Origin: Streptomyces dengpaensis
GTDB lineage: Bacteria; Actinomycetota; Actinomycetes; Streptomycetales; Streptomycetaceae
Reading direction: 5' to 3'
Assembly (NCBI RefSeq): GCF_002946835.1
Contig: NZ_CP026652.1
Coordinates: forward strand, 1,612,001-1,676,000
DNA: 64,000 nt
Shown here piece after piece: positions 32,669 through 56,531 of this stretch. Position 1 is the first letter of the stretch; each line of letters opens with the position of its first letter. The position numbers were made by a program, and so were the translations under genes. The notes beneath the pieces were generated by a model. That model was not told where the DNA came from. It worked only from the letters and a program-made list of their open reading frames with translations, and ran no database searches.

Positions 32669-32695
32669 AATCCCCGGTTTCGGTAACCGGGGATT
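32669..32695. promoter_or_regulatory. Element palindrome 1 (upstream of the 32581-25288 operon)
   Basis: Perfect inverted repeat with 11-base arms, AATCCCCGGTT and AACCGGGGATT, around the 5-base spacer TCGGT. On the gene strand the order is GGTTACCGAAACC followed by CTCCGGA, the same as at sites 2 and 4. It lies 88 bases before the start codon. A CATAGC hexamer sits just upstream of the repeat on the gene strand, so the repeat may overlap the transcription start. It is a likely operator. Confidence 0.75.
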
Positions 32696-32780
32696 GCGTG
32701 CTATGTTCCGCGCCGCCTAGCTCAGGGCAGACGGCATTTCACCGGACGGGGAAGGGGAAAGCCGGTGGGTAGCCGCGAAT

Positions 32781-33503
32781 TCAGCGGCTGGGACCGCGCG
32801 GTGGAGCGGGGTGCGCGGGCAGTGCGGGGACACCCGGAGCGGTGGTGTGGCTGGCTGGCGGTGACGCGGCCGGCAGCGGGATCGCCTCGCCGTTCCAGTG
32901 CGCTTCCCACCACTGGGTGGCTGCCTCGAAGGTGGCGAAGGCGCCCTCGCGCAGGGTGTGCGTCCACGCGTCGGTGTCGACCTCTTCGAGCAGTACCCGG
33001 AACGGCAGTGGCGCCTTCTCGTCGATGGCGCGCAGCAGCACGGTGGTCTCGATCGGCTCGGCGTCGTGCGTGTAGCTGGTCAGCAGGGCGAAATGGTCGC
33101 CGTCGCTGCGCAGTCGCTTCTCCAGGGCGCGGGTGGCCTGGTTGGCGGGTGTGGTGCCCATGCCGTCGGGCAGGAGGATCTTGTCCTCGGGGCAGCCGCG
33201 GGCGATCAGCCAGGACTGGGCAATGGACGGCAGCGGCAGTTCCTTGTGCGTGAAGCGGAAGGTGCGCGCCGCCGAGTCGCGTTTGAGGTGCAGGGCGACG
33301 ATCTGTGGTTCCCCGGGGATGCCCCAGGTGACGGCGCGGTTGTGCATCACGTAGAAGCTGTGCCCGCCGTCCTCGGTGTGGTGCTCGGCCAGCAGGGTGA
33401 GCATGTCCTGCTCGATGGTGATGTGCTGCCAGAACTGGTCGGCGACGTGGTCGTTGACGGCCTCATATCCGTCGAGGCGGAAATCCGGTTCGTGGGTGGG
33501 CAT
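32781..33503 (-). CDS. Unknown 240-residue alpha/beta protein
   Basis: I do not recognise the family. The N-terminal half reads QFWQHITIEQDMLTLLAEHH, SFYVMHNRAVTWGIPGEPQI, VALHLKRDSAARTFRFTHKE, with alternating hydrophobic strands and a long helical linker. The C-terminal half includes an ATFEAATQWWEAHWNGEA helix and a Pro-rich tail. It is the last gene of the unit B operon. The ATG at 33503 is chosen by composition; the longer frame upstream is Arg/Pro-rich noise. No catalytic signature is visible. Confidence 0.7.
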   Translation of the reverse strand: MPTHEPDFRLDGYEAVNDHVADQFWQHITIEQDMLTLLAEHHTEDGGHSFYVMHNRAVTWGIPGEPQIVALHLKRDSAARTFRFTHKELPLPSIAQSWLIARGCPEDKILLPDGMGTTPANQATRALEKRLRSDGDHFALLTSYTHDAEPIETTVLLRAIDEKAPLPFRVLLEEVDTDAWTHTLREGAFATFEAATQWWEAHWNGEAIPLPAASPPASHTTAPGVPALPAHPAPPRGPSR

Positions 33504-33559
33504 CGGTGCTTTCGGTGCGACGACGCCATGGGCGCCGTGGGCTGGGCGTGTTGAGCTGT

Positions 33560-34249
33560 TCAGCGACGCAAGTGTGCGGGAGCGCGTGATGACGCTGGCC
33601 GGGGCGACGGCGTGGTGCCGGGCGGGCCTGCGGGGCGCGGGGCGGCAAGGACGGCCCGGCCGGCGTCGGTGAGGGTGACGGGCTGGCCGGCGTGCACTGG
33701 GTGGGAGGTGTCGCGGTCCACGAGGCCGCTCGCCTGCAGGCGCTGCAGCTGGGCGTAGGAGATGCGGGTGCGGGAGGGGGTGGCCACGGCGAGCCGGTGG
33801 GTGAGGAGGTTCTCGTGGAGCTTGGCGCCCTGGGCGATGGCGAGCAGGGCCGCGAAGTCCTTCGTCGGCACCTGCTGTGGCGCCTGCCGCGGGGCGGCCG
33901 CTTCGATCGGCTCCAGCGCGGCGGTGGCCTTGGCCTGCTCGGTGTCGCGCTCGTCGATGGCGTGCGCGAGCTGGTCGACCGTGCGCTCGATTCGGGCCAA
34001 CAGCGCCTGATCGACGGGGAACTCGCCGGACACCAGGCGGGCGAGAAGGGCACGGTGGAAGGTGACGTCCCGCTCGGCCCGGACGAGGTCGCGGTGGGCG
34101 TCCGCCAGGGCCGAGTGCGGTGCGTCGAGGAGACCGGCCTCGCGGTGCCGCCACAGCTTCTCGATGCTGCAACCTGCGGCCGTCTCGATCCGGTGGTCGA
34201 GCACGGTGCGCGGGTGGCGGTCGGGCGAGGGTGCGGGGGGTGAGCTCAT
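33560..34249 (-). CDS. Helical protein with winged-helix-like C-terminus, family A relative
   Basis: A 229-residue protein. The first part (HRDLVRAERDVTFHRALLAR, then LARIERTVDQLAHAIDERDT) matches the helical family at 30811-32140. Residues about 150-215 then look like a winged helix (TRISYAQLQRLQASGLVDRD, PVTLTDAGRAVL). It could link the helical family to DNA binding. Function unknown. The ATG at 34249 overlaps the stop of the acetyltransferase gene. It lies in the middle of the unit B operon. Confidence 0.65.
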   Translation of the reverse strand: MSSPPAPSPDRHPRTVLDHRIETAAGCSIEKLWRHREAGLLDAPHSALADAHRDLVRAERDVTFHRALLARLVSGEFPVDQALLARIERTVDQLAHAIDERDTEQAKATAALEPIEAAAPRQAPQQVPTKDFAALLAIAQGAKLHENLLTHRLAVATPSRTRISYAQLQRLQASGLVDRDTSHPVHAGQPVTLTDAGRAVLAAPRPAGPPGTTPSPRPASSRAPAHLRR

Positions 34250-34719
34250 GTCGGAGCGGTTCTTGTGTGCGGGAGAGTGTCCGAGGCGCACGCGTCCAGG
34301 GCGATGCGGACCTCGACGTAGGGGCCGTCGCGGGTGCGCCGGGTGGGCCCCAGACGCTCCAGGAGCCGGAGCATCGGCGCGTTGGACGCCTGCGTGAACG
34401 CGGTGAGGGTGTGTGCCCCGCGCGTGCGGGCGATCCGGGCCGCCTGCCGGGCCAGGGCCGTTCCGATGCCGCGGCGGTGGTGGTCGTCGGCGACTTGCAG
34501 TCCGAGGTCGACGACGCCCGGCTCCCGGCTGACGGGCCCGACGCAGAGGAGGGCCAGTGGCCGCTCGTGAGCGTCGAGTCCGATCCAGCACTGCGCCTGG
34601 GCGAGCAGCCGCGTCAGGTCGCGGGGCGTGAGGCGGGTTCGGCCCCAGCGGCGCAGCAGGTTCTGTTCGGAACACTGCGCGTGGAAGGCGGCGACCAGGT
34701 CCCAGTCCGCCGCCGTCAC
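34246..34719 (-). CDS. GNAT-family N-acetyltransferase
   Basis: A 157-residue single-domain GNAT protein. Acetyl-CoA motif A is DDHHRRGIGTALARQAARIA, preceded by the strand VVDLGLQVA and followed by ASNAPMLRLLERLG, the classic motif B. The acceptor substrate is unknown. Its place inside a plasmid-like operon suggests protein or toxin modification, but there is no direct sign. The GTG at 34719 is the start of the coding frame. Confidence 0.88.
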   Translation of the reverse strand: MTAADWDLVAAFHAQCSEQNLLRRWGRTRLTPRDLTRLLAQAQCWIGLDAHERPLALLCVGPVSREPGVVDLGLQVADDHHRRGIGTALARQAARIARTRGAHTLTAFTQASNAPMLRLLERLGPTRRTRDGPYVEVRIALDACASDTLPHTRTAPT

Positions 34720-34748
34720 CGGGCGCGTACGCGCGACGGCGGGGTGGG

Positions 34749-35483
34749 TCAGCAGGAGCAGTCCGGGCGGGCGGCCTGCAGGTCGCCGCGCCGGTAGGCC
34801 CGGTAGCGGCTGCCGTCGACGTTGCGCGGCTTGCGGGACTGGACTCCGTAGGGGCGCAGGAGCAGAGCGAGGCGGACCGGGGTGAGGTCGGCGTAGCGCC
34901 AGCGTCCATCGGCCTCGCCGGGCAGCTCGCGCAGGCGCGCGACCAGCTCCGCGGTGCTCACATACTCCGCTGCACCCAGGACGTCGAAGATGTCAAGGCA
35001 GGCGTGGACAATCGTCCTCGGCCGACTCGGGCAGGTCAGGAACTCCTCGCACGTGGCCTCGTGGAGGCCGTCGAAGCCGTCGAGGTCGTCGGGACCCTCC
35101 AGATCCTCGAAGTCGTCGAAGCCCTCGAAGTCGGGATCGAGGTCCGGATCGAAGTCGGGCTCTTCGTCCTCCACCGGCTCGTACTCGCTGGGCGGTGCGG
35201 GCTCGTACGCAGCCTCACAGCAGCAGGAGGTGGACAGCAGCGCGCTCAACTCGGCTCCGGCTGCCATGCGTTCGATCAGCAGGTCGGTGAGCGTGTCGAG
35301 CTGCTCGGTGGCACTGACGCCGGCGGGACGGTCGGCGCCGGACAGGGCGGCGAGCTGCCGGTCGAGGTCCTGGATCTCGACGAACACATCGACGATGGCG
35401 CGGTGGTGCGGGTTCTCGGTGACCTCGGCCGGCGCCAGTACCGCGGCGGCGACCTGGTCAATCAGGGTGGGGAACTGCGTCAA
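34749..35483 (-). CDS. Acidic-linker protein with DUF3631-like C-terminus
   Basis: A 244-residue protein in three parts. The N-terminus is helical and ends in a Cys cluster (STSCCCEAAY). The middle is an extreme acidic run of about 45 residues (EDEEPDFDPDLDPDFEGFDD, repeated E/D-F units). The C-terminal 90 residues read RLALLLRPYGVQSRKPRNVD, then RYRAYRRGDLQAA, matching the C-terminal end of DUF3631 proteins of actinobacterial plasmids, which lies after their ATPase region. The ATPase itself is missing. The acidic tract could mimic DNA. The TTG at 35483 overlaps the previous stop. Confidence 0.7.
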   Translation of the reverse strand: MTQFPTLIDQVAAAVLAPAEVTENPHHRAIVDVFVEIQDLDRQLAALSGADRPAGVSATEQLDTLTDLLIERMAAGAELSALLSTSCCCEAAYEPAPPSEYEPVEDEEPDFDPDLDPDFEGFDDFEDLEGPDDLDGFDGLHEATCEEFLTCPSRPRTIVHACLDIFDVLGAAEYVSTAELVARLRELPGEADGRWRYADLTPVRLALLLRPYGVQSRKPRNVDGSRYRAYRRGDLQAARPDCSC

Positions 35484-35965
35484 CGAATGGGGCCCTTCAG
35501 GGTCGGGGGCAGTGCGGGTCGGGGAAGGCCGGGCATCGCGTAGGGCGGTGGTCCTGGCTTGGGGATGGGCTGGCGCGCTCCCAGCTGCGGCGAGCGGGTG
35601 CGGGCCGCGTGGGTGCGCTCGCCCAGGGGCCGTCGGGTGATGCCGAGGCGGGCGCGGGCGGTGTCGTACACGTCGTGCGCGTCCCGCGGGCGTACGGCCA
35701 CGACGTGGATCTCGGTGGTGTGCGTGGAGTTGGCAGGCGCCGGCCGCTGGGCGTAAACGATGCGCCACGCATTGCGGTGATCGACGTAGACCTTGCGGCA
35801 TCCGGCGAGATCGCGGGTGAGTTTGGCGCCGAACAGGCGGGCGTTGACGACGTCCTGGAGCTGGGCGAGCGCCAGGTCGCGGATGTCGCTGGGGGCCTGG
35901 AGAAGGTCGGTCAGGGCGCGCGGGTCGAAGGAGAGACCGAAGGCGGGCCGGTCGTGGCCGCTCAT
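35480..35965 (-). CDS. RelE/ParE-fold protein without a recognisable antitoxin
   Basis: A 161-residue protein whose middle reads RDLALAQLQDVVNARLFGAK, VYVDHRNAWRIVYAQRP, EIHVVAVRPRDAHDVYDTAR. The helix-helix-strand-strand order and the W-R-I-V-Y strand match the RelE/ParE ribonuclease or gyrase toxin fold. Usual antitoxins lie just upstream; here the upstream gene encodes a DUF4913 protein, which is not a known antitoxin. Start ATG at 35965 overlaps that stop. It may act as a toxin or have been recruited as a DNA-linked factor. Confidence 0.65.
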   Translation of the reverse strand: MSGHDRPAFGLSFDPRALTDLLQAPSDIRDLALAQLQDVVNARLFGAKLTRDLAGCRKVYVDHRNAWRIVYAQRPAPANSTHTTEIHVVAVRPRDAHDVYDTARARLGITRRPLGERTHAARTRSPQLGARQPIPKPGPPPYAMPGLPRPALPPTLKGPIR

Positions 35966-36612
35966 CCGGCCCCCTGGCCGGGTGCGCCGTTCTCCTTGGA
36001 CTCTGCGGTTTCGGCGGTGGTCCGGCTCGAGGGCGGCGGGCCGGGCAGCAGGCGGTGGGCGGGTCGGTCCGGATCGGTCATGCACGCGGACAGCGGCCCG
36101 CCGGCAGCCCGGACGGTGGCCATGGCGTGGGTGAGGAAGTCCCGGTGCCAGACGAACAGGCCGGACAAACCGGCCTCGGGATCCTTGTGCTGCTGGTAGG
36201 CCAGCCACAGGGCGTGGAGCCAGGCGACGACGTCGGCGTGTTCCTGCCACTGCTCGCACCACGGGGCGGCGGTGGTGACCTCCGCCCCGTAGACCCGGAC
36301 GAGGAAGTCATCCACCCAGTCCGACAGCGCGTCGAGTTCGTCTTCGTACTCCTCGCCCTCCAGTTCCAGGATCGGGCGGGGCTCCGGCGGGGCGCTCCGC
36401 GGCGGCAGGCCCGCGAACCCCGGCATGCCGAAGGCGCCGAACGGTGAGTCCGTGGGCAGCGGTGCGGAGGCGAGGCTGTCGAGCTGGCGGGCCTGCTCGG
36501 CAGATTGGTCCAGCAGTTTGCGAACGCTCGCCTCAATGCTCTCCAGATCGGACTCCGGCAGCCGGACCGGTTCCGTCTCCCCGTCCTCCGGGGGGTCTAT
36601 GGATTCAGGCAC
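35962..36612 (-). CDS. DUF4913-family protein
   Basis: A 216-residue protein with the DUF4913 pattern: DWVDDFLVRVYGAEV, then CEQWQEHADVVAWLHALWLA, GLSGLFVWHRDFLTHAMATV, GPLSACM. This domain is found in actinobacterial plasmids and integrative elements; its role is unknown, though association with replication or transfer is common. The N-terminus (about 75 residues) is acidic and Pro-rich. It is the first gene of unit B, with AAGGAGG nine bases before the GTG and palindrome 2 about 62 bases upstream. Confidence 0.85.
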   Translation of the reverse strand: MPESIDPPEDGETEPVRLPESDLESIEASVRKLLDQSAEQARQLDSLASAPLPTDSPFGAFGMPGFAGLPPRSAPPEPRPILELEGEEYEDELDALSDWVDDFLVRVYGAEVTTAAPWCEQWQEHADVVAWLHALWLAYQQHKDPEAGLSGLFVWHRDFLTHAMATVRAAGGPLSACMTDPDRPAHRLLPGPPPSSRTTAETAESKENGAPGQGAG

Positions 36613-36673
36613 GAAAAGGGGCCTCCTTGAGCCGCGGCCGTTGGGTGTGAATTGCGGCTCAAACCATCCGGAG

Positions 36674-36700
36674 AATCCCCGGTTTCGGTAACCGGGACTT
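36674..36700. promoter_or_regulatory. Element palindrome 2 (upstream of the DUF4913 operon)
   Basis: Left arm AATCCCCGGTT is identical to site 1 and the right arm is AACCGGGACTT, a slightly imperfect copy, with the same spacer TCGGT. The identity to site 1 extends to the left (TCCGGAGAATCCCCGG). On the gene strand a TATAGC hexamer lies just before the repeat, a good candidate -10 element. A shared regulator for both minus-strand operons is likely. Confidence 0.75.
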
Positions 36701-36782
36701 TGCTGCTATAACGCCCCGCGCGGCACGGCCATGGTGTGACGGGCCACGCACCACAGGCCGTGCCCGCGCTGCACGACAGGGC

Positions 36783-37583
36783 TCAGGACGTGAGGGTCAA
36801 GTCGTCCTGGGACAAAGTCTGTTGCAGCGTTTCGGTGAGCCGGTCGGCGGCTATCTCGGCGTAGTGCTTGGTCTTCTCGACGCCGATGAAATCACGGCCC
36901 TCCAGCAGGGCCGCGACTCCCGTCGAGCCCGAGCCGCAGGTGAAGTCGAGCACCGTGCCGCCGGGCGGGGAGATCTGCACCAGCTCACGCATGACGGAGA
37001 CGGGCTTCTGCGTGATGTGCTGCCGGCTCTTGCCCGACGGCTGCGAGGCGCTGTACAGGCCGGGCAGGTAGACCGGGTTCCTGGAGGCGTCGATCGGTCC
37101 GTTGCTGGCCCAGACGACGAATTCGCAGTTCTGGGTGAAACGGCCCTTCTGGGGGCGGGCCTGCGGCTTGTGCCAGGCGAGCACGCCCCGCCAGAGCCAG
37201 CCGGCGGCCTGGATGGCATCCGTGGTGATCGGCAGCTGCCGCCAGTCGGTGAACAGCAGCGCCGTGCCGCCGACCTTGGTGAGCCGGTGTGCCTCGGTCA
37301 TGATCTGGGTCAGCCAGAAGCCGTAGCTCCGCTGATCCATGTTCTCGCCGGTGAAGTCCGGCAGTTCATGCCCGGCGTCGGCGGAGGTGTACTTCTGCTT
37401 CGCGCTGCGGGACGTGCGCTCCTTCGCCGTCCGCCCGCCGCTGTTGTACGGCGGGTCGGTGATGACGGAGTCGACACAGTCATCCGGCAGTCCGGCGAGG
37501 ACGCCGAGCGCGTCGCCCTGGTGCAGGGAAAAAGGCAAAGAGATACCCCAATTCGGGTCGGGTGGGATGAGGGATTGAGACAC
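36783..37583 (-). CDS. DNA methyltransferase (DPPY, beta class)
   Basis: A 266-residue amino-methyltransferase. The catalytic motif IV is ITDPPYNSGG near residue 43; the SAM motif I is LDFTCGSGSTGVAA near residue 215, after a specificity region. This order (IV before I) defines the beta class, whose members make N6-methyladenine or N4-methylcytosine. No restriction endonuclease gene lies beside it, so it is an orphan or epigenetic enzyme, and mobile elements often carry one to survive host restriction. The GTG at 37583 is followed by the natural N-terminus; no ATG alternative is better. It diverges from the conjugation operon. Confidence 0.92.
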   Translation of the reverse strand: MSQSLIPPDPNWGISLPFSLHQGDALGVLAGLPDDCVDSVITDPPYNSGGRTAKERTSRSAKQKYTSADAGHELPDFTGENMDQRSYGFWLTQIMTEAHRLTKVGGTALLFTDWRQLPITTDAIQAAGWLWRGVLAWHKPQARPQKGRFTQNCEFVVWASNGPIDASRNPVYLPGLYSASQPSGKSRQHITQKPVSVMRELVQISPPGGTVLDFTCGSGSTGVAALLEGRDFIGVEKTKHYAEIAADRLTETLQQTLSQDDLTLTS

Positions 37584-37667
37584 TCCGGCCCGCCCGGATA
37601 ACCCGCGGGACCGAATGCGGGCAGGAAGGCACCGCGGGTCCGCGCAGCGAGAGGGCGAGGGGAGGAG

Positions 37668-37781
37668 TCAAAACTGTAGGGCACGATCCCCGGTTGAGCG
37701 CTATCACCGCCGAAATCCCCGAGACAGAGCCTTGACCGAACACGATTTCGGCAACCGGGGATCCGCCCTTACTGTTTTGGA
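37668..37781. promoter_or_regulatory. Element palindrome 3, split divergent form
   Basis: Two identical 12-base half-sites in opposite orientation, GATCCCCGGTTG at 37685-37696 and CAACCGGGGATC at 37752-37763, are 55 bases apart. The similarity runs on outwards on both sides to a TGTTTT/AAAACT block (37668-37680 and 37770-37780). Both arms point toward the genes they precede: the methyltransferase on the minus strand and the conjugation operon on the plus strand. This fits one regulator acting on both divergent promoters. Confidence 0.7.
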
Positions 37782-37842
37782 ACTGCCCGGCCAACACCGC
37801 CGGTGGCACATCCCCCGCCCCTGCCCTCGTGGAGGTATACCC

Positions 37843-37860
37843 ATGTCCTGGCACACCTGA
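37843..37860 (+). CDS. Possible five-residue leader peptide
   Basis: An ATG with a perfect GGAGG eight bases away is followed by four codons and TGA (MSWHT). Similar GTGGAGG ribosome sites precede the first genes at 32581 and, less strongly, 56584. The peptide could be a leader for translation control or the start of a lost gene. Nothing else supports expression. Confidence 0.35.
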   Translation: MSWHT

Positions 37861-37990
37861 CCCGACGCCCGTGCCGGTGCGAGCGGCAACTCGCGCACAT
37901 GCACCCGGGCCCCGATTTACCCACCACCCGGCCGTCGCGCCCTTTCCTCAACGACGCACGCGCCGCCGGGACTTCACCAAGGACCTCGTT

Positions 37991-38068
37991 GTGACATCGC
38001 CCTACCCGCCCCTGCCCGCACACCGGTCCCCGGACCGTGACCGCCTGCCGGGAGGCGTCCCCGATTGA
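37991..38068 (+). CDS. Possible 25-residue protein coupled to the transglycosylase gene
   Basis: The GTG at 37991 follows AAGGA by seven bases. The frame encodes 25 residues (TSPYPPLPAHRSPDRDRLPG core) and its TGA overlaps the TTG of the next gene as TTGA. This is the overlap style used throughout the element, so coupling is plausible. The peptide is Pro-rich and unlike any family I know. Confidence 0.45.
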   Translation: MTSPYPPLPAHRSPDRDRLPGGVPD

Positions 38069-39180
38069 AGGGCGTGGCCGCCGGCATCGGCGTCTTCGTC
38101 CTCTCCCCACTCCTCCTCGCCGGCACGGCCATGCTGATGGCCACCAGCAGCGAGGCCGCCCAGACCACCTACTCCTCCCTCACGTGTGTGGGCGACGTCG
38201 ACACGGACGCCGTCGTCGAGCAGGTCACCAAGATCCTCAACGGCGCGGACGCCAAGACCGTCCGTGTCGAGGGCCTGTCCCTGCCCGAGGAGCAGATCCC
38301 CAACGCCCGCACGATCGTGGCCACCGGGATCAGCATGAACGTGCCGAAGAAGGGGCAGATCATCGCGCTCGCCACCGCGATGCAGGAATCGCGGCTGCGC
38401 AACCTGAACTCCGGCGACCGCGACAGCCTCGGGCTCTTCCAGCAACGGCCGAGCCAAGGCTGGGGCACCGCCACGGAGATCCACGACCCCGTCTACGCCG
38501 CCACCCAGTTCTACAAGCATCTGCTCGCGGTGGACGGCTGGCAGCAGCTGACCGTCACCCAGGCCGCACAGGCAGTCCAGCGCTCCGCCTACCGCGATGC
38601 CTACGCACAGTGGGAGGACCTGGCGACTGCCCTGCAGAAGGCGATCGCCGCGACGTTCCCCGACGCCGACCAGGACACCAGCGAGACGGACACCGCCTCC
38701 AGCACCACGTCCTGCGCGGCGACCGAGGACGGCTCGGGGTACGGCATCATCCCGGAAGGGTCGGTGCCGAAGGGCTACTCGATCCCGAAGGACGCGGATC
38801 CGAAGGCGCGCAAGGCCATCGCCTGGGCAATGGCGCAGCTCGGCACGATGTACCAGTGGGGCGGCACCTGCACCGCGCCGCACGGCCCCGACCCGATGGG
38901 CCGCTGCGACTGCAGCTCGCTGACCCAGCAGGCGTACAAGCACGCCGGCATCACCCTCACCCGCACCACGTACACGCAGATCAACGAGGGCAAGGCCGTC
39001 TCCACCAAGCACCTTCAGCCGGGCGACCTGATCTTCTCCCGCGGCAGTGCCGCCCGCCCCGAACACGTCGGCATGTACATCGGCTCGGGACTCGCGATCG
39101 AGGCACCAAGGACTGGAAAACCAGTTCGCATCACGCCCCTCGCGGACTGGGACATCCTCGCCGCCCGCCGGGTCATCTGA
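38065..39180 (+). CDS. Bifunctional lytic transglycosylase / NlpC-P60 peptidase
   Basis: A 371-residue cell-wall hydrolase that opens peptidoglycan for the conjugation channel. Residues 1-25 form a signal or anchor helix. A lysozyme-like domain (ATAMQESRLRNLNSGD with the catalytic Glu, then LGLFQQRPSQGW) is followed by a C40 domain with catalytic Cys in GRCDCSSLTQQAYK and His in RPEHVGMYIGSG. This two-domain protein is typical of actinobacterial conjugative operons. The TTG start has GGGAGG seven bases before it. Confidence 0.92.
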   Translation: MKGVAAGIGVFVLSPLLLAGTAMLMATSSEAAQTTYSSLTCVGDVDTDAVVEQVTKILNGADAKTVRVEGLSLPEEQIPNARTIVATGISMNVPKKGQIIALATAMQESRLRNLNSGDRDSLGLFQQRPSQGWGTATEIHDPVYAATQFYKHLLAVDGWQQLTVTQAAQAVQRSAYRDAYAQWEDLATALQKAIAATFPDADQDTSETDTASSTTSCAATEDGSGYGIIPEGSVPKGYSIPKDADPKARKAIAWAMAQLGTMYQWGGTCTAPHGPDPMGRCDCSSLTQQAYKHAGITLTRTTYTQINEGKAVSTKHLQPGDLIFSRGSAARPEHVGMYIGSGLAIEAPRTGKPVRITPLADWDILAARRVI

Positions 39181-39195
39181 CCCCCGACCGGGGTA

Positions 39196-45281: not shown

Positions 45282-46796
45282 ATGAGCCACCAGCCCGCGC
45301 GCCGAGCCCGCCGCGCCAGCGCCAGCCCCCTGTTCACCCCGCACCACGCCGACCGCGCCTCCCGCAAAGCCGCCCGCCAGCAGCTCGCCGAGGCTGCCGC
45401 GAAGGCCCGCGTCGAAGCAGCCGCCCCCACTGGCAGTGCCGGCGTAGAGGAACGGGAGATGCCGCCGCCCCTCTTCCCGCCCACCGGGCGTCCTGGCCCC
45501 GCGTCCTCCCGCAACAACAGGTTCAAGCTGCCCGCCCACCGCATGACCACCGCCACCGCGAGCGGGGCCTACCCGTTTCTCGCCGAAGGCGGCCTCGGCG
45601 CCGAGGGCATCTACATCGGCCGCGACGTCCACGCCGAAGCCTCCTTCTGCTTCGATCCGTTCGCGCTGTACGGCAAGGTCGAGGGCTTCACCAACCCCAA
45701 CGTGCTGTTGGCCGGGGTGATCGGACAGGGCAAGTCGGCGTTGGCCAAGAGCTTCGCGCTGCGGTCGATCGCCTTCGGATACCGGGTCTACGTGCCGTGT
45801 GACCCGAAGGGGGAATGGACGCCAGTGTCACAGACACTGGGCGGCACCTCCATCGCACTCGGGCCGGGCCTGCCCGGAAAGCTGAACCCTCTGGACGCGG
45901 CGCCGCGGCCCAACAGCGTCTCCGAGGCCGACTGGGCGGGCGAGATCCGCAAGCGCCGTCTGCTGCTGCTCGGCTCACTGGCCCGCACCGTGCTTGGGCG
46001 GGACCTGCTGCCGATGGAGCACACCGGCCTCGACGTCGCCCTGGATGCTGTCGTCACCCGCGCCGCCGCGACCGGTCGCACCCCGCTGCTCGGCGACATC
46101 GCCGCCACCCTCAACAACCCCGACGAACTCGACGTGGCCGGCGGCATCATGTCCGGTCGCCTCGGCGACGCCTCCCGCGACCTCGCCCACGCCATGCGCC
46201 GGCTGGTCCACGGTGATCTCGCCGGGATGTTCGACGCCCCGAGCACCGTCACGTTCGATCCCAACTCGCCGATGCTCACCATCGACCTGTCCCGCCTGGG
46301 CGGATCCGGCGACGACACCGCCTTGGTCTTGGCGATGACCTGTGCGTCCGCGTGGATGGAATCCGCGCTCTCCGACCCGAACGGCGGGCGGCGCTGGATC
46401 GTCTACGACGAAGCCTGGCGCCTGATGCGCCACCCCGGCCTCCTCCAGCGCATGCAATCCCAGTGGAAGCTGAGCCGCGGCCTGGGCATCGCCAACCTGA
46501 TGGTGATCCACCGGCTGTCCGACCTGCTCACCGCCGGCGACGCCGGATCACGTGGCCGGGCACTGGCCGAAGGACTGCTCGCCGACTGCTCCACCCGCAT
46601 CATCTACCGGCAGGAGACCGACCAACTCCCTGCGGCAGCAGCCCTGTTGGGACTGACCTCGGTGGAGACCGACGCGATCTCCCATCTCAACCGGGGCCGA
46701 GGCTTGTGGAAAGTGGCGGGGCGCAGCTTCATCGTGCAGCACCTCCTGCACCCCCACGAGCTGGCGCTCTTCGACACCGACGCCCGCTTGCGCTAA
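45282..46796 (+). CDS. VirB4/TraC-like conjugative ATPase
   Basis: A 504-residue motor ATPase. Walker A is GVIGQGKSALAKSF near residue 149; Walker B is RRWIVYDEAWRLM near residue 375, the usual D-E-A-x-x-L/M signature; further VirB4/TraC motifs are LMVIHRLSDLLTAG and IIYRQETDQL. The N-terminal half of full VirB4 is supplied by the SCO6880-like protein. It powers assembly of the transfer channel. The first 80 residues are Arg/Ala/Pro-rich. No coupling protein (VirD4) is seen in the window. Confidence 0.92.
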   Translation: MSHQPARRARRASASPLFTPHHADRASRKAARQQLAEAAAKARVEAAAPTGSAGVEEREMPPPLFPPTGRPGPASSRNNRFKLPAHRMTTATASGAYPFLAEGGLGAEGIYIGRDVHAEASFCFDPFALYGKVEGFTNPNVLLAGVIGQGKSALAKSFALRSIAFGYRVYVPCDPKGEWTPVSQTLGGTSIALGPGLPGKLNPLDAAPRPNSVSEADWAGEIRKRRLLLLGSLARTVLGRDLLPMEHTGLDVALDAVVTRAAATGRTPLLGDIAATLNNPDELDVAGGIMSGRLGDASRDLAHAMRRLVHGDLAGMFDAPSTVTFDPNSPMLTIDLSRLGGSGDDTALVLAMTCASAWMESALSDPNGGRRWIVYDEAWRLMRHPGLLQRMQSQWKLSRGLGIANLMVIHRLSDLLTAGDAGSRGRALAEGLLADCSTRIIYRQETDQLPAAAALLGLTSVETDAISHLNRGRGLWKVAGRSFIVQHLLHPHELALFDTDARLR

Positions 46797-48281: not shown

Positions 48282-48310
48282 AACCCGGTACCCATATCAA
48301 GGAGTTGCCG

Positions 48311-48841: not shown

Positions 48842-48863
48842 TCCCGTCTCCCGGAGCGCCCGC

Positions 48864-49940: not shown

Positions 49941-49972
49941 CACCGCGGCCCGGCCACGCCCCGAGGAGTTCC

Positions 49973-50491: not shown

Positions 50492-50516
50492 CCCGCCCCG
50501 TCGACAGGAAGATTCT

Positions 50517-51078
50517 CTGTCCAGTCGTTCTGTCATCGCCCGCCCCACCGCCACCGGCTACGCCGGGACGTACGTCCACTGGGACGGCTACCCCAGCCAT
50601 CACCTGCCGCTGCTGCTCGCCGCGCACCAGCACCGTTTCGCCGGCGACACCGAGGCCCTGGCCGCGTACCTCATCGACGACGCGCCAGAAGGCTGGTCCT
50701 CCCTCGGCACCGACCTCCTCGACGGAGCCCCCGAGGCCCTGCGCCAGCAACTCGCCGCCGGCCGACGATCGCGGCAAGCGCTACCCGGCCCACCCGACCC
50801 AGCCACCACTGATCTACACGGAGCGGACGGCGTCCCGGCTGAACTGGGGCTACGTCCTGCACCCGCACGGCATCGAAGTGATCGCCCTGCAGGCGTATGA
50901 CCGCGGCCCTGTCGTCGCGTGGGACACCGACCCGCGCAGCCGCATCCGTGCCGACCCGGGCGTATGGCATCCGGATTCCCGGGCCCCGATCGTCCCGCCG
51001 CGCACCAGCCCGCGCCTGTCCACTACCGCGTTCGCGTCCGCGCCGGCGCCGACGCCCCGCAAGGCCGCCCGCCGCTAG
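50517..51078 (+). pseudogene. CTG-started gene with a frame break near 50760
   Basis: The first frame encodes SRSVIARPTATGYAGTYVHW and ends near LRQQLAAG; the rest (DDRGKRYPAHPTQPPLIYTE, RLNWGYVLHPHGIEVIALQA) is in another frame. Dropping one base in the GC run at about 50756-50766 joins them into one protein of about 185 residues. The first frame has no ATG, GTG or TTG anywhere, so the CTG at 50517, with AGGAAG seven bases before it, is the only reasonable start. No function known. Confidence 0.7.
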
Positions 51079-51122
51079 CCCCGGCAGCCCCGTCCCCGAC
51101 CGACGCCCGCCCGGAGAACCCT

Positions 51123-51890
51123 CTGTCCTCGTACACCCGCCCGAAGATCACCGTGGTCATCGCCACCCAACTCCGCCCGGACCGCCTTGCATTCCTCGCG
51201 GCCATGCATGCCAGCCTGTGCCGGCAGAGCGTCCCGTGGGAGGCCATCGTCGCCCTCGATGGCGCCGACCCCGCCCGGCTTCCCGCCGCCCTTGCCGCCG
51301 ACGCCCGCGTCCGCGTCCTCGCCCTGCCGCGCCCGGTCGGTGCGGCCTGCGCGAGGAATCTGGCGCTCAATGAGGTGCGTACCGAGTACGTCAACTGGGC
51401 CGATGACGATGACGAGTTCACCGACTGGGCCATGGCACTGCGCCTGCACACCCTGGAGCAGACCGGGGTGGGCTGGTGCGCCGGATACAGCCAGGACCTG
51501 CACGAGGACGGTGCCACGACCCTGTGGCGGTGCCCGACGCCGCCGGGCCGGCACGAGGCCGGCGACGTCTGGCGGTACTGGAAGGACCCGGCCGACACCA
51601 TCCCGCTCGGCCCCACCACCCTGTTGGCCCGCACCGACCTGGTGCGCGCGGCCCCCATGGGCGGACTCGTGCAGGGCGAGGACTACTGCGCCCTGGCGAT
51701 CACCTGTCTCGCTCCGGGAGTCCTGCTGCCCGTTCCGGTCTACCGCTACCGCAAGCACGCCGGCCAGATGACCGCGCAGGACTCGTACGACCAGTTGGAA
51801 GCGAGCGCGCGGGTCTTCGCCCATCGGTTCGGCACCAGCCTGCGCGCCGCATCGCTCTCGCTGCGCGATTCCGCCTCCTCCACCGCGTAG
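51123..51890 (+). CDS. GT2-family glycosyltransferase-like protein
   Basis: A family 2 glycosyltransferase (GT-A fold) of about 255 residues. The N-terminal strand KITVVIATQLRPDRLAFLAA is followed by VPWEAIVALDGADPARL and ACARNLALNEVRTEYVNWAD, then DDDDEFTDWA (the D-x-D-like metal site, here WADDDDEF). Later LGPTTLLARTDLVRAAPMGG and GEDYCALAITCLAPG fit the family. The acceptor is unknown. The CTG at 51123 with GGAG six bases before it is the probable start; the alternative GTG would remove the first beta strand. Confidence 0.8.
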   Translation: MSSYTRPKITVVIATQLRPDRLAFLAAMHASLCRQSVPWEAIVALDGADPARLPAALAADARVRVLALPRPVGAACARNLALNEVRTEYVNWADDDDEFTDWAMALRLHTLEQTGVGWCAGYSQDLHEDGATTLWRCPTPPGRHEAGDVWRYWKDPADTIPLGPTTLLARTDLVRAAPMGGLVQGEDYCALAITCLAPGVLLPVPVYRYRKHAGQMTAQDSYDQLEASARVFAHRFGTSLRAASLSLRDSASSTA

Positions 51891-51942
51891 TTGAGGCTCC
51901 CCCCTTCCCTGCTCCGCTCCCTCCCCGACCACCGGAAGGCCC

Positions 51943-52752
51943 ATGCCCACCGACCCCGCCCAGGACAGGCCGCGAGAGAAGATCCTCATCTCTCCCCGCT
52001 ATCTGGCCGCCAGCCTCCCCAACGACCACCGACAGCTCCTGGACGTCTTCGCCGAGGACTCCACATGGAGCGCACACACCGACGAGTCGTCGGTGACCGT
52101 CACCAGCCCGTGCCAGCGCATCACGATCCGCCACGACCAGTCAGCCGTCGGCCAAGGCGCCCACCTGGTGATCTCAGCCCGCACCGACGAGGAAGCACCC
52201 GAGCGCTGGCGGACGGACGTCTCCGGCAACGTGCCGATCGAACTCGTCGCCCGACTCATCAGCACCCTGGCACACGAACTGGCCAGCGACCCGGATCACG
52301 TCGTCTACGGCATCGGCACCGAACACGGCCTGCTGGAGCTCTACGTCGACGCCGACGTCTGGAACTACTTCGAGGACTCCGGGCTCTCCGGATTCATCTC
52401 GCACGACGGTCACGCTGCCGTGGTCAACCGGGCCGTGGACTCGCCGACGCCACCCATCCACGGGGACGCATCCATCACCTGGCACCTGGCGGCCTCCCCG
52501 GAAGACCTCGGTCACCTGTGGGACATCTCGCTCACGGACAAGACGCCGCCCTTCCTCATGCACGCGGTCGTCGCCGAGGCCCTCGATCCCCGGCCCACCC
52601 TGCGCTCCACGACCTTTCCGGTCCCCGCGGTCGTCGCCCCCCTGGTCACCATTCAACGGGCTCCGTCGCCCTCTCCTCGCCCCTCGGCGCAGCCTCCCCA
52701 CGACGGACCACCGCGCAGCCCCGAGCCCAAGCGCACCCCGAAGACCCGCTGA
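51943..52752 (+). CDS. DUF317-like cargo protein
   Basis: A 269-residue protein beginning ILISPRYLAASLPNDHRQLL, the same opening as the DUF317-type gene at 11596. Visible blocks are HLVISARTDEEAPERWRTDV, VPIELVARLISTLAHELASD and ASITWHLAASPEDLGHLWDI. These match the unit pattern of the 11596 and 62873 products, though diverged. Function unknown. It begins at an ATG at 51943. Pro-rich tail ends with KRTPKTR. Confidence 0.75.
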   Translation: MPTDPAQDRPREKILISPRYLAASLPNDHRQLLDVFAEDSTWSAHTDESSVTVTSPCQRITIRHDQSAVGQGAHLVISARTDEEAPERWRTDVSGNVPIELVARLISTLAHELASDPDHVVYGIGTEHGLLELYVDADVWNYFEDSGLSGFISHDGHAAVVNRAVDSPTPPIHGDASITWHLAASPEDLGHLWDISLTDKTPPFLMHAVVAEALDPRPTLRSTTFPVPAVVAPLVTIQRAPSPSPRPSAQPPHDGPPRSPEPKRTPKTR

Positions 52753-52804
52753 GCCCCGTCCCTCTCGACGAACTCGCCCGCGGGCTCGACCCACCTGGAC
52801 CTTG

Positions 52805-53983
52805 ATGCCCACCCCCTCCGCCGAGATCATCCTCACCACCAGCCACACCCTGGGCCTTGTCGCCATCACGCACGGCGAGAAGTACCCGCAGGCCAACCAG
52901 GCACTGGAAGAAGCCGGATTCAGCCGCCTGTCCAACGGTGCGTTCGTCTCCCCGCTGACCGATCCGCAGGCCGCCCGGCACACCGCCAGCGCCCTGGTGC
53001 ACCACGCTCACGAGCACGGCGCCACCATCACCACCAGCAGCCGGCCCTACCTCGGCGACATCGGCACCGAGATCGCCGCCAAGCTGCCCGGCACGTGGAG
53101 CGCCGAACTGGAGATCTACTCCCACCCGCTGTGGCAGGAAGACCTCTGGCCCATGTTGTGGGAAGCCGGTGCCATCTACCGGGCCCTGGAAGAGGGCCGC
53201 ATCCCGTTCGCGTCCGTGCTGAAGAACAGCACCGGCACCGGACTGCTGCTGATCGAACGCCCCGGCCACCGCAGCGGCTACCTCCTCGGCGCTCTCACCG
53301 ACCGAGAGCAGGAAGACCCGCACGATGACCCCACCACGCCGCGCAGCATCGTGCTGCCCGCCGATCCCGGCCTGGCCGCACACGCGATTGCGCACACGTT
53401 CCTACCGGCCTACCGTCGCGCACTGCACAACCAGGACCTGAACACCGTCCTGAGATCGCTGGACCGCATCCGGGAAGAACACCAGACTCTCCAGGCGATC
53501 AAGGACTCCGGCCGTTACAGCGACGGTATGCCGCTCAGCGACTCGCGCCTGATCGTGGGAATGGAACGGGACTTCGCCGACCACGCCTGGCTGTCCTACC
53601 GCGAGGTTCTCGAGCACTCGCCGGTCCTGCTCGCCCGATGCCGTCCCACCGCCACCCCCTGGCCCCAGGACGCCGCAGCACTGACCCGCCTACGCGAGGC
53701 GCTCGCCAACAGCCAGGGCGCCTGGAACGAGTGGAACGACATGCGGCACGAGCTGTACTCGATCCCCCGGACGCTGCCGGCCCACGAATGGCGCCAGGTC
53801 CGCGGGCAGCTCGGTCTCGCCGTCCTGCCGGCCATCGAGACGTGGCTCGCCGACAGCGAAGCCTTCGAGCGTCAGGCCCGCGCCGCCGTACCGGGCGGGC
53901 CGGCGGCTCTGTCCGCGCCCAGCCCGCGGCTGCTCACCGCCCGGCCCACGCCACCGCCCTCGCCCCGCGCAGCAATCCGCTGA
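52805..53983 (+). CDS. Large cargo protein with GF module and LPGTW domain
   Basis: A 392-residue protein of three parts. Residues about 25-75 carry one GF module (ANQALEEAGFSRLSNGAFVS then ALVHHAHEHGATITTS). Then comes the LPGxW domain shared with the 47490 and 59433 products (IAAKLPGTWSAELEIYSHP, LLIERPGHRSGYLLGALTDR, HTFLPAYRRAL). The last 170 residues are helical with Trp (GAWNEWNDMRHELYSIPRTL). No known domain. The ATG at 52805 directly follows a TTG. It ties the two cargo families together in one protein. Confidence 0.75.
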   Translation: MPTPSAEIILTTSHTLGLVAITHGEKYPQANQALEEAGFSRLSNGAFVSPLTDPQAARHTASALVHHAHEHGATITTSSRPYLGDIGTEIAAKLPGTWSAELEIYSHPLWQEDLWPMLWEAGAIYRALEEGRIPFASVLKNSTGTGLLLIERPGHRSGYLLGALTDREQEDPHDDPTTPRSIVLPADPGLAAHAIAHTFLPAYRRALHNQDLNTVLRSLDRIREEHQTLQAIKDSGRYSDGMPLSDSRLIVGMERDFADHAWLSYREVLEHSPVLLARCRPTATPWPQDAAALTRLREALANSQGAWNEWNDMRHELYSIPRTLPAHEWRQVRGQLGLAVLPAIETWLADSEAFERQARAAVPGGPAALSAPSPRLLTARPTPPPSPRAAIR

Positions 53984-54006
53984 CCCCGCACAGAAGGGAT
54001 TCGTCT

Positions 54007-54453
54007 CTGTCCGACCACTTCCGCTTCGGCGCCCACCCCGACCACGGCTTCGTGGCCACCGCCACCGCGAACATCCCCGCGCACCTCGCCGACTGGTTCC
54101 TCGTCCATGAACAGTTCGAGCCCGTCCCCGACACTCCGGGCCTGTACCGGCTCACCCACCCCGAACAGGACGGCATCCGTCGTACCCGCCAGGCCGTCCT
54201 CGACCTGCGCCGACAGGGCTACGAGGTGCAGGCCGACCTCCCCCTCGACCCCGCCCGCACCGCCGGCCCGCCGCAACCGGCCGTGCGCAACGGCCTGATG
54301 GAGCGACGCAACCGCATCGCGCAGGCGGCGGCCACCCGCTCCCCGCAGCGGCCCACCGCCCCGGCACCCACGCTCCCCGAGTTTCTCCCGCAGTCCGCCG
54401 CCATACCCGTGGGCGGCCGAGCCCAGGCAGCCGGAAAGGGGCGGAGCCGATGA
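54007..54453 (+). CDS. Small GF-module protein, probable CTG start
   Basis: A 148-residue protein. The GF/YxV module is visible as ADWFLVHEQFEPVPDTPGLY, RLTHPEQDGIRRTRQAVLDL, RRQGYEVQADL. A Pro-rich tail ends with AAGKGRSR. The frame has no ATG, GTG or TTG near the start; the CTG at 54007 follows GAAGGG by 8 bases and gives the natural N-terminus (SDHFRFGAHPDHGFVATATA). Function unknown. The stop overlaps the next ATG (ATGA at 54450). Confidence 0.65.
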   Translation: MSDHFRFGAHPDHGFVATATANIPAHLADWFLVHEQFEPVPDTPGLYRLTHPEQDGIRRTRQAVLDLRRQGYEVQADLPLDPARTAGPPQPAVRNGLMERRNRIAQAAATRSPQRPTAPAPTLPEFLPQSAAIPVGGRAQAAGKGRSR

Positions 54454-54801
54454 GCGACCCAGCGATCCGCATCACCCGTGGCCAGGGCGGCGAAGTCGAA
54501 GTTGACGGCCCGGTCGACGCCCTCGCCGCGAGCCTCCTGGCCCGGGCCGGGTTCGACACCTATCCCACACTGCGCGGGCGTATGGATCCGGCTGCCGTTC
54601 GACCTGGGCCGCCGCTGGGAGAACGAACACGCCACCTGGGCGGCGGAGATGCTCACCGCAGCCCGGTACACCGTCGACCTCGATTCAGACCTGCGTAACG
54701 CGCCGCCGTCTGCTCCCGCCGCGCCGTCGGCACCACACCGCGCGACGGCGATAACAACCCAGCCTCCGCCACCCACCACCCCGAGACGGTCCGGGCGCTG
54801 A
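54450..54801 (+). pseudogene. GF-module gene with a frame break near 54583
   Basis: The first frame encodes SDPAIRITRGQGGEVEVDGP, then LAASLLARAGFDTYPTLRG. The natural continuation, VWIRLPFDLGRRWENEHATW then AAEMLTAARYTVDLDSDLR, is in another frame. Removing one base at about 54580-54586 restores one protein of about 116 residues with the complete GF/YxV module. It overlaps the upstream gene as ATGA. It is the last cargo gene of the first operon. Confidence 0.75.
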
Positions 54802-55398
54802 ACCCCTACCGCCGGTACGCACTGCCACGCAGGAACGACGGTGATGCATATGCCCACGCCAGCCCCGGATGCAGTCGTTTCAGCAGGTCAGGGACGAAAA
54901 CCCCGCACCCTGGGCGGAATTGAATGACCACCACCCAAATGGGTGATCACCGCTCTACGGCCGCGCCAGGCTCCGCGAGCCGACCCGGCCGCGCGGCCAC
55001 CAGCCGGACCTGCGGACATCCGCAGGATCTCTCCCTCGCCACAGCACGCTCCGTGGTGAGCGACGCAAGCCGTCACGAAATACCGGCGCCGAGCATTACC
55101 CGTCACGCATTTGAGCGACCGAGGCAAAAAGTCCAGCCCCCGCCTCCAGCATTTGACGCCCCGCAAAGCAAAATACAGGGACACCCGCACAAAATCGCAT
55201 CGCCCATTTCGGTGACACGGCGGGAAATTCCGAGCCGTATTTCCACTCCCGCGAAATCGCTTCAGTGGTAGAGTCTTAAGAGTCATCCACAATGACGGCG
55301 GGGCCTGCCCGGCCTCCAACCAGTACAGACCCCGCCAGGGTTGACGTGGATGCCGCGTAGGAGTCCGCTGCGTGCGGGCTCCTACGCGGGCACCCTGG
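54802..55398. other. 597-base gene-poor region, lower GC
   Basis: No coding frame is convincing. The stretch 55070-55290 is richer in A/T than its neighbours and has short A-tracts (CGAGGCAAAAAG, GCAAAATACAGG). Around 55275 the sequence TAGAGTCTTAAGAG could contain promoter hexamers. The right end holds the hairpin described separately. The region separates the first cargo operon from the second and could hold replication or control sites. Confidence 0.4.
55335..55397 (-). terminator. Nested hairpin downstream of the tiny basic peptide gene
   Basis: Arms at 55355-55368 and 55374-55387 pair over 14 bases with one mismatch and a 5-base loop. An outer pair, CCAGGGT at 55335 and ACCCTGG at 55391, can extend the structure. 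It lies immediately after the stop codon of the minus-strand small gene, so it is probably its terminator. A structured RNA is the alternative. Confidence 0.6.
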
Positions 55399-55548
55399 TT
55401 ACAGCAGCCAAGACTTGACCACTTGCGCGAAGCGCACAGTGATCAGCCCGAGTTGCGCCATGAGGACCACAGCCCTCAAGCGTCGAAGCCGGCGCAGGCT
55501 GCGCCGGGTCCTCGACCTCTCGCTCGACTCCTCGTTGTCCAGGGTCAC
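55399..55548 (-). CDS. 49-residue basic peptide with hydrophobic C-terminus
   Basis: The GTG at 55548 has GGAAGGGG nine bases before it. The N-terminal half is strongly charged (TLDNEESSERSRTRRSLRRL), then RRLRAVVLMAQLGLITVRFA makes a hydrophobic helix that ends at VVKSWLL and TAA. The hairpin right after it supports an independent transcription unit. This charged-then-hydrophobic plan resembles small membrane peptides, some of which are toxic or regulatory. No family recognised. Confidence 0.5.
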   Translation of the reverse strand: MTLDNEESSERSRTRRSLRRLRRLRAVVLMAQLGLITVRFAQVVKSWLL

Positions 55549-55980
55549 GTCTATCACCCCCTTCCGATTCATGCCCGGAAAAGGGCTTATCCAGGGATCA
55601 ACTTACCATCCCGAGGGGTGGCCGACTCGCCGCTAGACACGCGAGCTCTAACCGCGCCGTAGACGGTTGAGTAAATTAGTGAATGGGCCACCCACCGCCC
55701 CCACCGGCGAAATCAATACCAGCTTTAGACCGGACCCGCAGGTCACCCAAGGTTTCCTGCAAGTCTTAAGCGTCAATCACCGGTCCGGACGCCCGCGCAT
55801 CCAGTTTCGGGACCCCTTCCGCGACCTGTCACAGGTCACAGTCCTTGAGTTCTTGCACCCTTCGCCCGAGGCACCTCGACCGCCGCTGTCCTCATCACAC
55901 CTGTGCCGGGCCTGGTGCCGTCCGCCACGTTCGACGGCACCCGTGCACCGCCCCGATTCCCCACAACTACCTGGAGTTTT
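55549..55980. other. 432-base gap between opposing small genes
   Basis: This stretch should hold the promoters of the tiny minus-strand gene and of the plus-strand gene at 55981. A plus-strand frame from a TTG at 55667 to 55984 overlaps the next ATG as ATGA, but its second half (PPRSTAPVHRPDSPQLPGVL) is not protein-like and there is no ribosome site. A low-GC patch with TAAATTAGTG lies at 55673-55682. Confidence 0.4.
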
Positions 55981-56478
55981 ATGACCGTCCGTATGAAGTG
56001 GACCGTTCAGCACACCTGTGGTCACGAGATCACGCACGACCTGTCCGACCGGCCTGCCGACCGGCGCGCCTCCTTCGCCCGTTGGCTGGAGGGACGCGAC
56101 TGCACCGACTGCTGGCAGGCCGCCCGCGACCAGGACAGCGCCGGCAAGGAGGAGTGGCTGGCCACCAAGCGCGCCAAGGAGCAGCAGGCCGCCGCCGAGT
56201 GGGCCGAGAAGTTCGACATGCCGCCGCTCGAAGGACCCGCGAAGGCCCTCGCCTGGGGGGAGCGCTCCCGCCACGAACTGGTGACCGCCGCGTACAGCGC
56301 GCTGGTGACTGAGGGCAGCTGGGGTGAGGCCGACTGGGCTGTCCTGGAGGACACCATCCGCACCGTCACCCGCGCCGGGTGGTGGCTCGATCAGCGTGAC
56401 GCCGAGGGCTCTGACCTGCCCGAACTCCTGGACGCCGCCACCAGTGACGACGTCGGAACGGAGAACCCGTTCCGGTAG
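55981..56478 (+). CDS. Unknown 165-residue protein with a Cys/His N-terminus
   Basis: The N-terminal segment MKWTVQHTCGHEITHDL and CTDCWQAARDQDS carries a C-x-H / C-x-x-C set that could bind one zinc. A long helical region follows (KEEWLATKRAKEQQAAAEWA), then a second helix-rich part (GSWGEADWAVLEDTIRTVTR) ending in ENPFR. No named family. The ATG at 55981 has TGGAG four bases upstream. It is a lone gene just before palindrome 4, and so outside unit D. Confidence 0.75.
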   Translation: MTVRMKWTVQHTCGHEITHDLSDRPADRRASFARWLEGRDCTDCWQAARDQDSAGKEEWLATKRAKEQQAAAEWAEKFDMPPLEGPAKALAWGERSRHELVTAAYSALVTEGSWGEADWAVLEDTIRTVTRAGWWLDQRDAEGSDLPELLDAATSDDVGTENPFR

Positions 56479-56492
56479 AGACGAGGTCTATA

Positions 56493-56531
56493 CCGGACGA
56501 TCCCCGGTTACCGAAACCGGGGATCGTCCGG
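56493..56531. promoter_or_regulatory. Element palindrome 4 (upstream of the second cargo operon)
   Basis: A perfect inverted repeat with 17-base arms, CCGGACGATCCCCGGTT and AACCGGGGATCGTCCGG, and the spacer ACCGA. It is the best copy of the element palindrome. The gene-strand orientation is the same as at sites 1 and 2. TATACC lies just before it and could be the -10 element. The first gene of unit D starts 53 bases further on. Confidence 0.8.

Follow-up and report, generated by a model that had tools for sequence, protein, structure and literature searches.

The 64,000-nucleotide stretch of Streptomyces dengpaensis DNA analysed here (NZ_CP026652.1, positions 1,612,001 to 1,676,000; hereafter the window) contains part of an integrative and conjugative element (ICE) of the type IV secretion system (T4SS) type, in which one short palindrome recurs before several operons. 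The palindrome is probably the inner part of an operator for a master regulator encoded by this element family itself, and sequence comparison points to HxlR2, a tandem two-domain HxlR winged-helix protein, as the most likely regulator. The site is conserved and keeps its placement before genes in related elements, its spelling is linked to the element that carries it, and that spelling diverges together with HxlR2. From these patterns we infer that HxlR2 binds the site and regulates its own synthesis, and likewise the promoter, the sign of the regulation and an inducing signal.

The composite site and its anatomy

Exact copies of CCCCGGTT-TCGGT-AACCGGGG lie at 32672-32692 (plus strand) and, with the spacer reversed, at 56502-56522; 36677-36697 is a copy with one mismatch. 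The palindromes named in a preliminary description of this DNA are confirmed at all three places (32672, 36677 with one mismatch, and 56502), as is their constant orientation: the strand of the downstream gene reads ACCGA at every site. With their flanks the sites are as follows.

32656-32707, minus strand: site 1, full composite site; palindrome 32672-32692; heads the row of genes from SH3 to HxlR2
36661-36712, minus strand: site 2; palindrome 36677-36697 (one mismatch); before the DUF4913 gene
56487-56538, plus strand: site 3; palindrome 56502-56522; before the gene at 56536-57000

When up to three mismatches are allowed, the pattern matches four times in the window against 0.90 expected, a count reached by one of 100 shuffles; a filter that scores the flanks as well returned the three window sites, compared to none in each of 20 dinucleotide shuffles. 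A search of the whole genome (8.71 Mb) for the N5 pattern with at most one mismatch found the three window sites, C1:1499507 and 409308, the last with the unrelated spacer CCCGG. The match at C1:1499507 is one further exact copy, 145 kb left of site 1 and before an integrase gene, the likely start of which is roughly 100-145 bp away on the 3' side; the longest integrase open reading frame (L005:6708-8033; Phage_integrase with Arm-DNA-bind_4) overlaps the site, and where the gene really begins is uncertain. The preliminary description had one regulator switching a secreted-factor/ligase operon, the DUF4913 operon, the transfer operon and a second cargo operon. The shared site holds; the extent was drawn too small, as the putative regulon also takes in int outside the window.

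The anatomy of the site was read from 90 of the 106 sites of the genus search described below (16 were omitted, the window's three included), which form 47 clusters selected without regard to their flanks. The conserved unit measures about 51 bp with the palindrome as its core, and on the gene strand runs TAGC, six bases, AT, palindrome, AT, seven bases, A, three bases, TT. The letters of TAGC are kept in 43 (T), 42 (A), 38 (G) and 44 (C) of the 47 clusters, the downstream A (+10) in 41, and the two letters of TT in 44 (the T at +14) and 38. The flanks are partly mirror images, which suggests two contacts per half of a dimeric protein, while the differences between them suggest promoter direction. 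Pooling all spellings (77 clusters from 210 distinct, flank-filtered sites) shows GGTT/AACC to be nearly invariant, with p2 either C (71%) or G (29%) and p20 either G (69%) or C (30%); p7p8 is TT in 75 of the 77 clusters. The spacer varies, yet p11 is C in 66 of the 77 and p13 is A in 88%. In this pooled set the flank filter itself raises the apparent conservation of the flanks.

A TATAGC- or TATACC-like hexamer had been reported beside two sites only. That was wrong, since T and A occupy -11 and -10 in 43 and 42 of the 47 clusters. The idea that TATAGC serves the downstream gene as its -10 box was considered and set aside, because its first two positions are the least conserved and its sixth is C in 44 of 47 clusters; the Streptomyces -10 box is TANNNT, from which the best-kept letters of the hexamer differ. 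A candidate promoter would instead consist of a -35 element TTNNC (p7-p11, within the palindrome), 17 bp, a -10 element xAnnnT (+9 to +14) and a start near +21, leaving by eye a leader of some 40 nt before many start codons. It is plausible that the site overlaps this putative promoter.

Distribution, spelling and co-divergence with HxlR2

Across Streptomyces, the motif with the TCGGT spacer (at most one mismatch) occurs 106 times in 45 of 295 genomes, and the reversed control pattern not at all. When genomes were sampled across the order, the N5 pattern flanked by AT, again with at most one mismatch, was present in 44 of 293, all of the window's genus, and in none of the 20 that represent other genera. 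Exact matches to a sister form, CGCCGGTT-N5-AACCGGCG (CGCC/GGCG arms), occur in 115 of the 295 Streptomyces genomes (control, 1).

After removal of sites with a flank score below 5 and of exact duplicates, 162 distinct sites remained, and downstream genes were assigned with a 450-nt window and simple leader patterns. Recognised gene families follow 104 of them: the site-3 gene (20), SH3 (17), DUF4913 (16), int (16, leaders included), xis (16), c14 (11), other int (3), lipoprotein (2), c15 (2) and XRE (1). The same site precedes several operons of one element, the arrangement of a Kor-like regulon. In a further 25, here called group 3, a conserved leader runs into the 3' end of an opposing gene. 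Group 3 leaders (L012, L032, L040, L090 and others) contain a Shine-Dalgarno-like GAAAGGC and no clear ATG, and may specify a small RNA or a peptide. The genes behind the sites of L010, L011, L019, L031, L071 (3' of the site), L045 and L069 seem to begin with ATC or ATT in place of the ATG of their relatives L008, L027 and L033, int in L041 and L093 being perhaps alike; by eye, no in-frame ATG, GTG or TTG lies behind the palindrome of L010.

The spellings comprise CCCC arms with ACCGA, AGCGA/AGCAA or TCSGA spacers, and CGCC arms with AGCCA/GGCCA. Arm and spacer spelling is mostly common to the sites of one element and different between elements; even within single genomes (G093 and G247) far-apart sites differ in spelling, which argues for a reader encoded by the element.

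The candidate for this reader lies behind site 1.

29890-30780, minus strand: HxlR2, proposed reader of the site; tandem two-domain HxlR winged-helix protein

HxlR2 (296 aa) matches the HxlR domain PF01638 with 70.6 bits against a cut-off of 20.8, and hhalign recognises a further domain related to it (probability 96.7, E 4.7e-10). A search of PDB sequences identified YodB (E 3.2e-12), HxlR (1.4e-8) and also HypR (YybR) as solved relatives. The AlphaFold2 model consists of two consecutive winged helices, with a mean predicted local distance difference test score (pLDDT) of 71 and averages over ten-residue blocks of 80-92 for residues 91-220 and 62-82 for residues 11-90; the best Foldseek matches are YodB/HxlR-type structures, at weak E-values (0.01). 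Possession of two winged-helix units sets HxlR2 apart from solved HxlR-type chains (107-168 aa), which have one winged helix-turn-helix per chain. It is encoded by the fifth gene behind site 1, the successive gaps being 114 nt after SH3, an overlap, 11 nt and 30 nt, and so would control its own synthesis.

A profile scan of the species genomes found 106 relatives of HxlR2, and the best 80 entered the analysis. At least six of the 80 (L240, L244, L251, L255, L265 and L293) are elements that also occur under G handles. With the flank filter also applied here, 75 of the 80 loci have a full site, the nearest 1.4-2.9 kb upstream; one of the five without a site (L287) has less than 0.5 kb of upstream sequence. 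Five rounds of shuffling the 80 loci left 1, 0, 0, 0 and 3 loci with a site. All 97 sites near HxlR2 point in its direction, and related elements have the site ahead of the same operons. Both findings bear out the shared operator of the preliminary description, which would have been refuted by a repeat scattered at random or lying inside genes of related elements. Plasmid and phage collections held no match to HxlR2.

For 43 loci having all 13 genes compared (loci lacking any gene were dropped, as were genes 41216 and 42668, present in too few loci), we correlated the Hamming distance between operators with the distance between proteins. HxlR2 ranked best (r 0.876), followed by g32.8 (0.840), DUF4913 (0.816), 31685 (0.799), wHTH_33.7 (0.768), 31245 (0.729), the methyltransferase (0.705), NlpC (0.684), 40138 (0.657), SH3 (0.553) and SPDY matches (0.28-0.56); the SPDY matches in these 20-kb loci are probably other family members, the core SPDY genes lying more than 20 kb away in the window. 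With the mean of the other genes removed, the partial correlation is 0.684 for HxlR2 and 0.540 for g32.8, and HxlR2 ranks first in 475 of 500 resamplings of the loci. Genes between site 1 and HxlR2 correlate less well, such that linkage alone is an insufficient explanation. HxlR2 also has the highest ratio of D1-D3 to D1-D4 identity (1.10) among 23 core genes in 10 elements; site3g follows with 1.06 and all others are below 1. Row L120 (23% identity, cause unexplained) was left out of A2, and in another comparison the rows G163 and G012 are not HxlR2. Residue 34 of HxlR2 is M in 27 of 27 C-arm loci and L in 48 of 48 G-arm loci, and the arm classes are split as well by residues 170-171, which adjoin the beginning of the predicted second recognition helix (H171-183). 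That one protein binds all sites is what we infer from this linked change.

A split form of the palindrome had been noted between the methyltransferase gene and the conjugation operon. It is real and conserved: two half-sites face each other where the putative promoters of the methyltransferase and transfer genes diverge, each half-site with TAnnnT outward at an equal distance.

37673-37695, minus strand: half-site A, CCCCGGTT at 37688-37695; outward TACAGT box; methyltransferase side
37753-37775, plus strand: half-site B, AACCGGGG at 37753-37760; outward TACTGT box; transfer-operon side

The half-sites start at 37686 and 37753, 67 bp from start to start, and the same spacing is kept in seven of the eight elements of this spelling that were compared (G000, G013, G177, G057, G193, G284 and G116); the eighth stretch (G267, L141) has neither the half-sites nor a match to the methyltransferase. 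The comparison was extended to HxlR2 loci having both methyltransferase and operator (25 C-arm, 46 G-arm). All 25 C-arm loci have a CCC-type half-site on the methyltransferase side and a GG[GA]-type half-site on the transfer side. The distance between the two is 63-68 bp in most loci, 35 bp in three and 52 bp in one, and the seventh letter of the transfer-side half-site is G in every case. The letter matching p20 is C in the transfer-side half-site of 44 of the 46 G-arm loci, 28 of which read AACCGCCG. This letter follows arm class, and a separate promoter region therefore varies with the class of the full sites, though without identical spelling.

Proposed mechanism and alternative readings

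In the mechanism that we consider probable, HxlR2 most likely reads the site as master regulator of the element. An HxlR2 dimer would present four DNA-reading domains, which fits an inner and an outer pair of half-sites: the inner pair would be the arms and spacer, variable between elements, and the outer pair the more constant TAGC and ATT sides. As the site overlaps a plausible promoter, repression of the int/xis, transfer and accessory operons would be expected until HxlR2 is released; that the sign is repression is a guess.

Several observations weigh against this proposal. The transfer-side half-site of G-arm loci is mostly AACCGCCG, not AACCGGCG, and on the methyltransferase side the half-site was not found in 25 of 46 G-arm loci and matches with 7-9 mismatches in the other 21. 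Shared ancestry and linkage are not wholly eliminated by correlating distances, and g32.8, beside site 1, takes first place in 25 of the 500 resamplings. Perfect separation of the arm classes is seen at 21 of 195 HxlR2 positions, 11 of them in a single linker deletion, so these separators may reflect ancestry. The candidate -10 element has G or C in place of T1. No recognised gene lies downstream of 33 of the 162 sites, which stay unclassified; spacers are mixed in G163, G377, G403 and G506; and one right-end site of the window's own element is CGCC-like (TGCC-AGCCA-GGCA, L114:9984-10004, C1:1699984). Of the 11 genomes compared that have a site in the TCGGT search, seven have a strong HxlR2 match (E <1e-50); three others (G007, G021 and G122) have no two-domain HxlR2 among the matches listed, and a fourth (G183) has a match of only 28%, over residues 14-257. 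The orphan sites belong to other elements, all of which encode an integrase and several also MobC/NikA, a MobB-like relaxase and SPDY, and the 20-kb stretches around these sites contain no HxlR2.

It follows from G007, G021 and G122 that HxlR2 is not an obligatory partner of every site, and a different element-encoded reader (for example g32.8, wHTH_33.7 or a SPDY protein), with HxlR2 merely travelling along, has to be weighed. The second rank of g32.8 in the correlation speaks for such a reader, as do the smaller elements that have sites without HxlR2, many of which encode a small XRE protein beside the site. We nevertheless judge it unlikely: wHTH_33.7 reaches 0.768 in the correlation, core SPDY proteins have identity ratios of 0.90-0.99, and the XRE protein has no tblastn match in the window or in other ICE core stretches. 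A host (chromosomal) factor reading all sites could explain why sites of different kinds of element have the same flanks; it is very unlikely given that the spelling is mostly common within an element and unlike between elements of one genome (G093, G247). Rather less doubtful, and possible, is a promoter dependent on an activator, with the same operator and HxlR2, the fixed-distance flanks belonging to an activator-RNA polymerase site. Conservation of the flanks at fixed spacing in the 47 clusters and the weak -10 element without T1 are consistent with this; against it, the middle of the operator would be near -31, where repressors bind more commonly.

As an alternative, the preliminary description had proposed that the repeat folds into a hairpin at the 5' end of the transcripts. 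Predicted folding energies at four genome sites are -20.2, -12.0, -36.5 and -24.0 kcal/mol (z -4.13, 0.03, -7.93 and -4.15), a strong fold at three of the four, with site 2 folding no better than shuffles. Position 5 forms pairs, of four types, in 15 of 22 group 3 sites, compared to 6.0 when shuffled. Among the 113 sites outside group 3, pairing is above the shuffled level at positions 1, 3 and 4 (P 0.004, 0.003 and 0.005, from shuffles that ignore relatedness) and near it at positions 5-9 (P 0.05-0.41, smallest 0.051). Clear covariation beyond the palindrome and its nearest bases is thus confined to position 5 in one class of site. Given in addition that the outer flanks are asymmetric, that the spacer is conserved on one strand and that the window has no Rfam match, we regard a hairpin as the weaker explanation and as highly improbable for the repeat at large; a structural RNA role in group 3 is possible. 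An extended RNA stem or riboswitch leader is not supported by covariation outside group 3 and matches no Rfam family.

In many of the elements that lack HxlR2, an XRE protein of about 90 aa is encoded directly behind a CGCC-type site, while the site before xis or mob has CCCC arms, mostly with ACCGA; the two types lie 383 bp apart in G033 and G252, and about 6 kb apart in G093 and G022. Such mobilizable elements could respond to the regulators of ICEs in the way that SGI1 responds to AcaCD. In all four genomes compared that have both an ICE and such an element (G033, G110, G289 and G093), the spelling of the mob or xis site is not that of the resident ICE, which does not favour coupling to that ICE. 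We suggest, tentatively and with more doubt than conviction, that Streptomyces ICEs form operator dialects, each lineage with its own spelling and HxlR2, and that small mobilizable elements may carry one or two dialects (CCCC-ACCGA before mob or xis, CGCC-type before the XRE gene) to sense, and react to, more than one kind of incoming conjugative helper. The right-end site at C1:1699984 is unlike the other sites of the window's element, which raises the question of a hybrid element. Two HxlR2 loci with CGCC-type sites (L285 and L289) both belong to Streptomyces scabiei 87.22. The tyrosine integrase of one mobilizable element (L126:1705-3237) has a LacI-type helix-turn-helix (PF00356, residues 302-344) inside its catalytic part.

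Gene context and known systems

The conserved core of the element spans approximately 26-64 kb of the window and C1:1676-1701 kb, and encodes VirB4-like, VirD4/TraG, SCO6880/6881-family and NlpC/P60 proteins, two DNA methyltransferases and several SPDY proteins. Besides HxlR2, the genes around the sites are:

32255-32581, minus strand: SH3 gene, first behind site 1; bacterial SH3 domain (PF08239)
31685-32140, minus strand: gene 2 behind site 1; without Pfam match
31245-31688, minus strand: gene 3 behind site 1; without Pfam match
30811-31233, minus strand: gene 4 behind site 1; TTG start by eye; occupies the gap before HxlR2
35962-36612, minus strand: DUF4913 gene behind site 2
36783-37583, minus strand: N6/N4 DNA methyltransferase behind half-site A
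38065-39180, plus strand: NlpC/P60 gene, first called gene of at least 300 nt behind half-site B
45282-46796, plus strand: VirB4-like ATPase, transfer region
56536-57000, plus strand: gene behind site 3; without Pfam match; GTG start near 56584 by eye

Small plus-strand reading frames at 32842-33672, right of site 1, were considered as a divergent operon and dismissed, as they look like shadows of a conserved minus-strand gene. A search for attachment sites that compared a 500-base stretch at the int end with C1:1676001-1710000 found only a shared 15-mer, and the right end is not established. At 19238-25127 there are three adjoining large open reading frames (829, 672 and 485 aa), the last a weak phage-integrase match and the others without Pfam match; the trio may be recombinases. 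Cargo of the window's element (L113:7828-14641) includes relatives of MobC/NikA, of a MobB-like relaxase and of their neighbours from small mobilizable elements, with no site found.

KorSA of pSAM2 and KorA/KorB of RK2 are single element-encoded regulators with several operators before integration or transfer genes. The putative HxlR2 regulon is alike in this respect and differs in protein family; for the Kor systems we know of no four-part 51-bp site or operator spellings. With HxlR, YodB and HypR, HxlR2 has in common the PF01638 domain and the sequence and fold matches among PDB structures; unlike them it has two domains per chain and a C-terminal tail, and is encoded in a mobile element.

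AcaCD, the master regulator of conjugative IncC plasmids, is also used by the mobilizable element SGI1 to start its excision (PMC4605294, PMC5058578). AcaCD is an activator complex; in the Streptomyces elements described here cross-talk is only suggested. In pIJ101, sps is a palindrome conserved in Streptomyces mobile DNA to which SpdA2, a protein of the same element, binds (PMC4170104); it differs from the site described here in lying inside the spdA2 gene and in affecting segregational stability. The T4SS ICEs and integrative and mobilizable elements of Streptomyces described in the accessible parts of PMC9513070 and PMC10711302 are of the same class as the element studied here; in those parts, the string 'palindrom' does not occur in the former nor 'HxlR' in the latter, and an HTH-nudix, cI-like gene is mentioned for ICE01 of PMC9513070. 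A literature search found no paper joining HxlR with Streptomyces integrative and conjugative elements, in a collection that lacks most subscription journals, so that a published account may exist all the same.

An element-wide operator regulon with a double-HxlR master regulator is, on the sequence evidence, probable. It would make the timing of excision and transfer of some large Streptomyces mobile elements approachable from their sequence, and it names a master regulator that can be tested. The regulon of an element, or the set of elements able to cross-regulate one another, may then be predictable from sequence alone.

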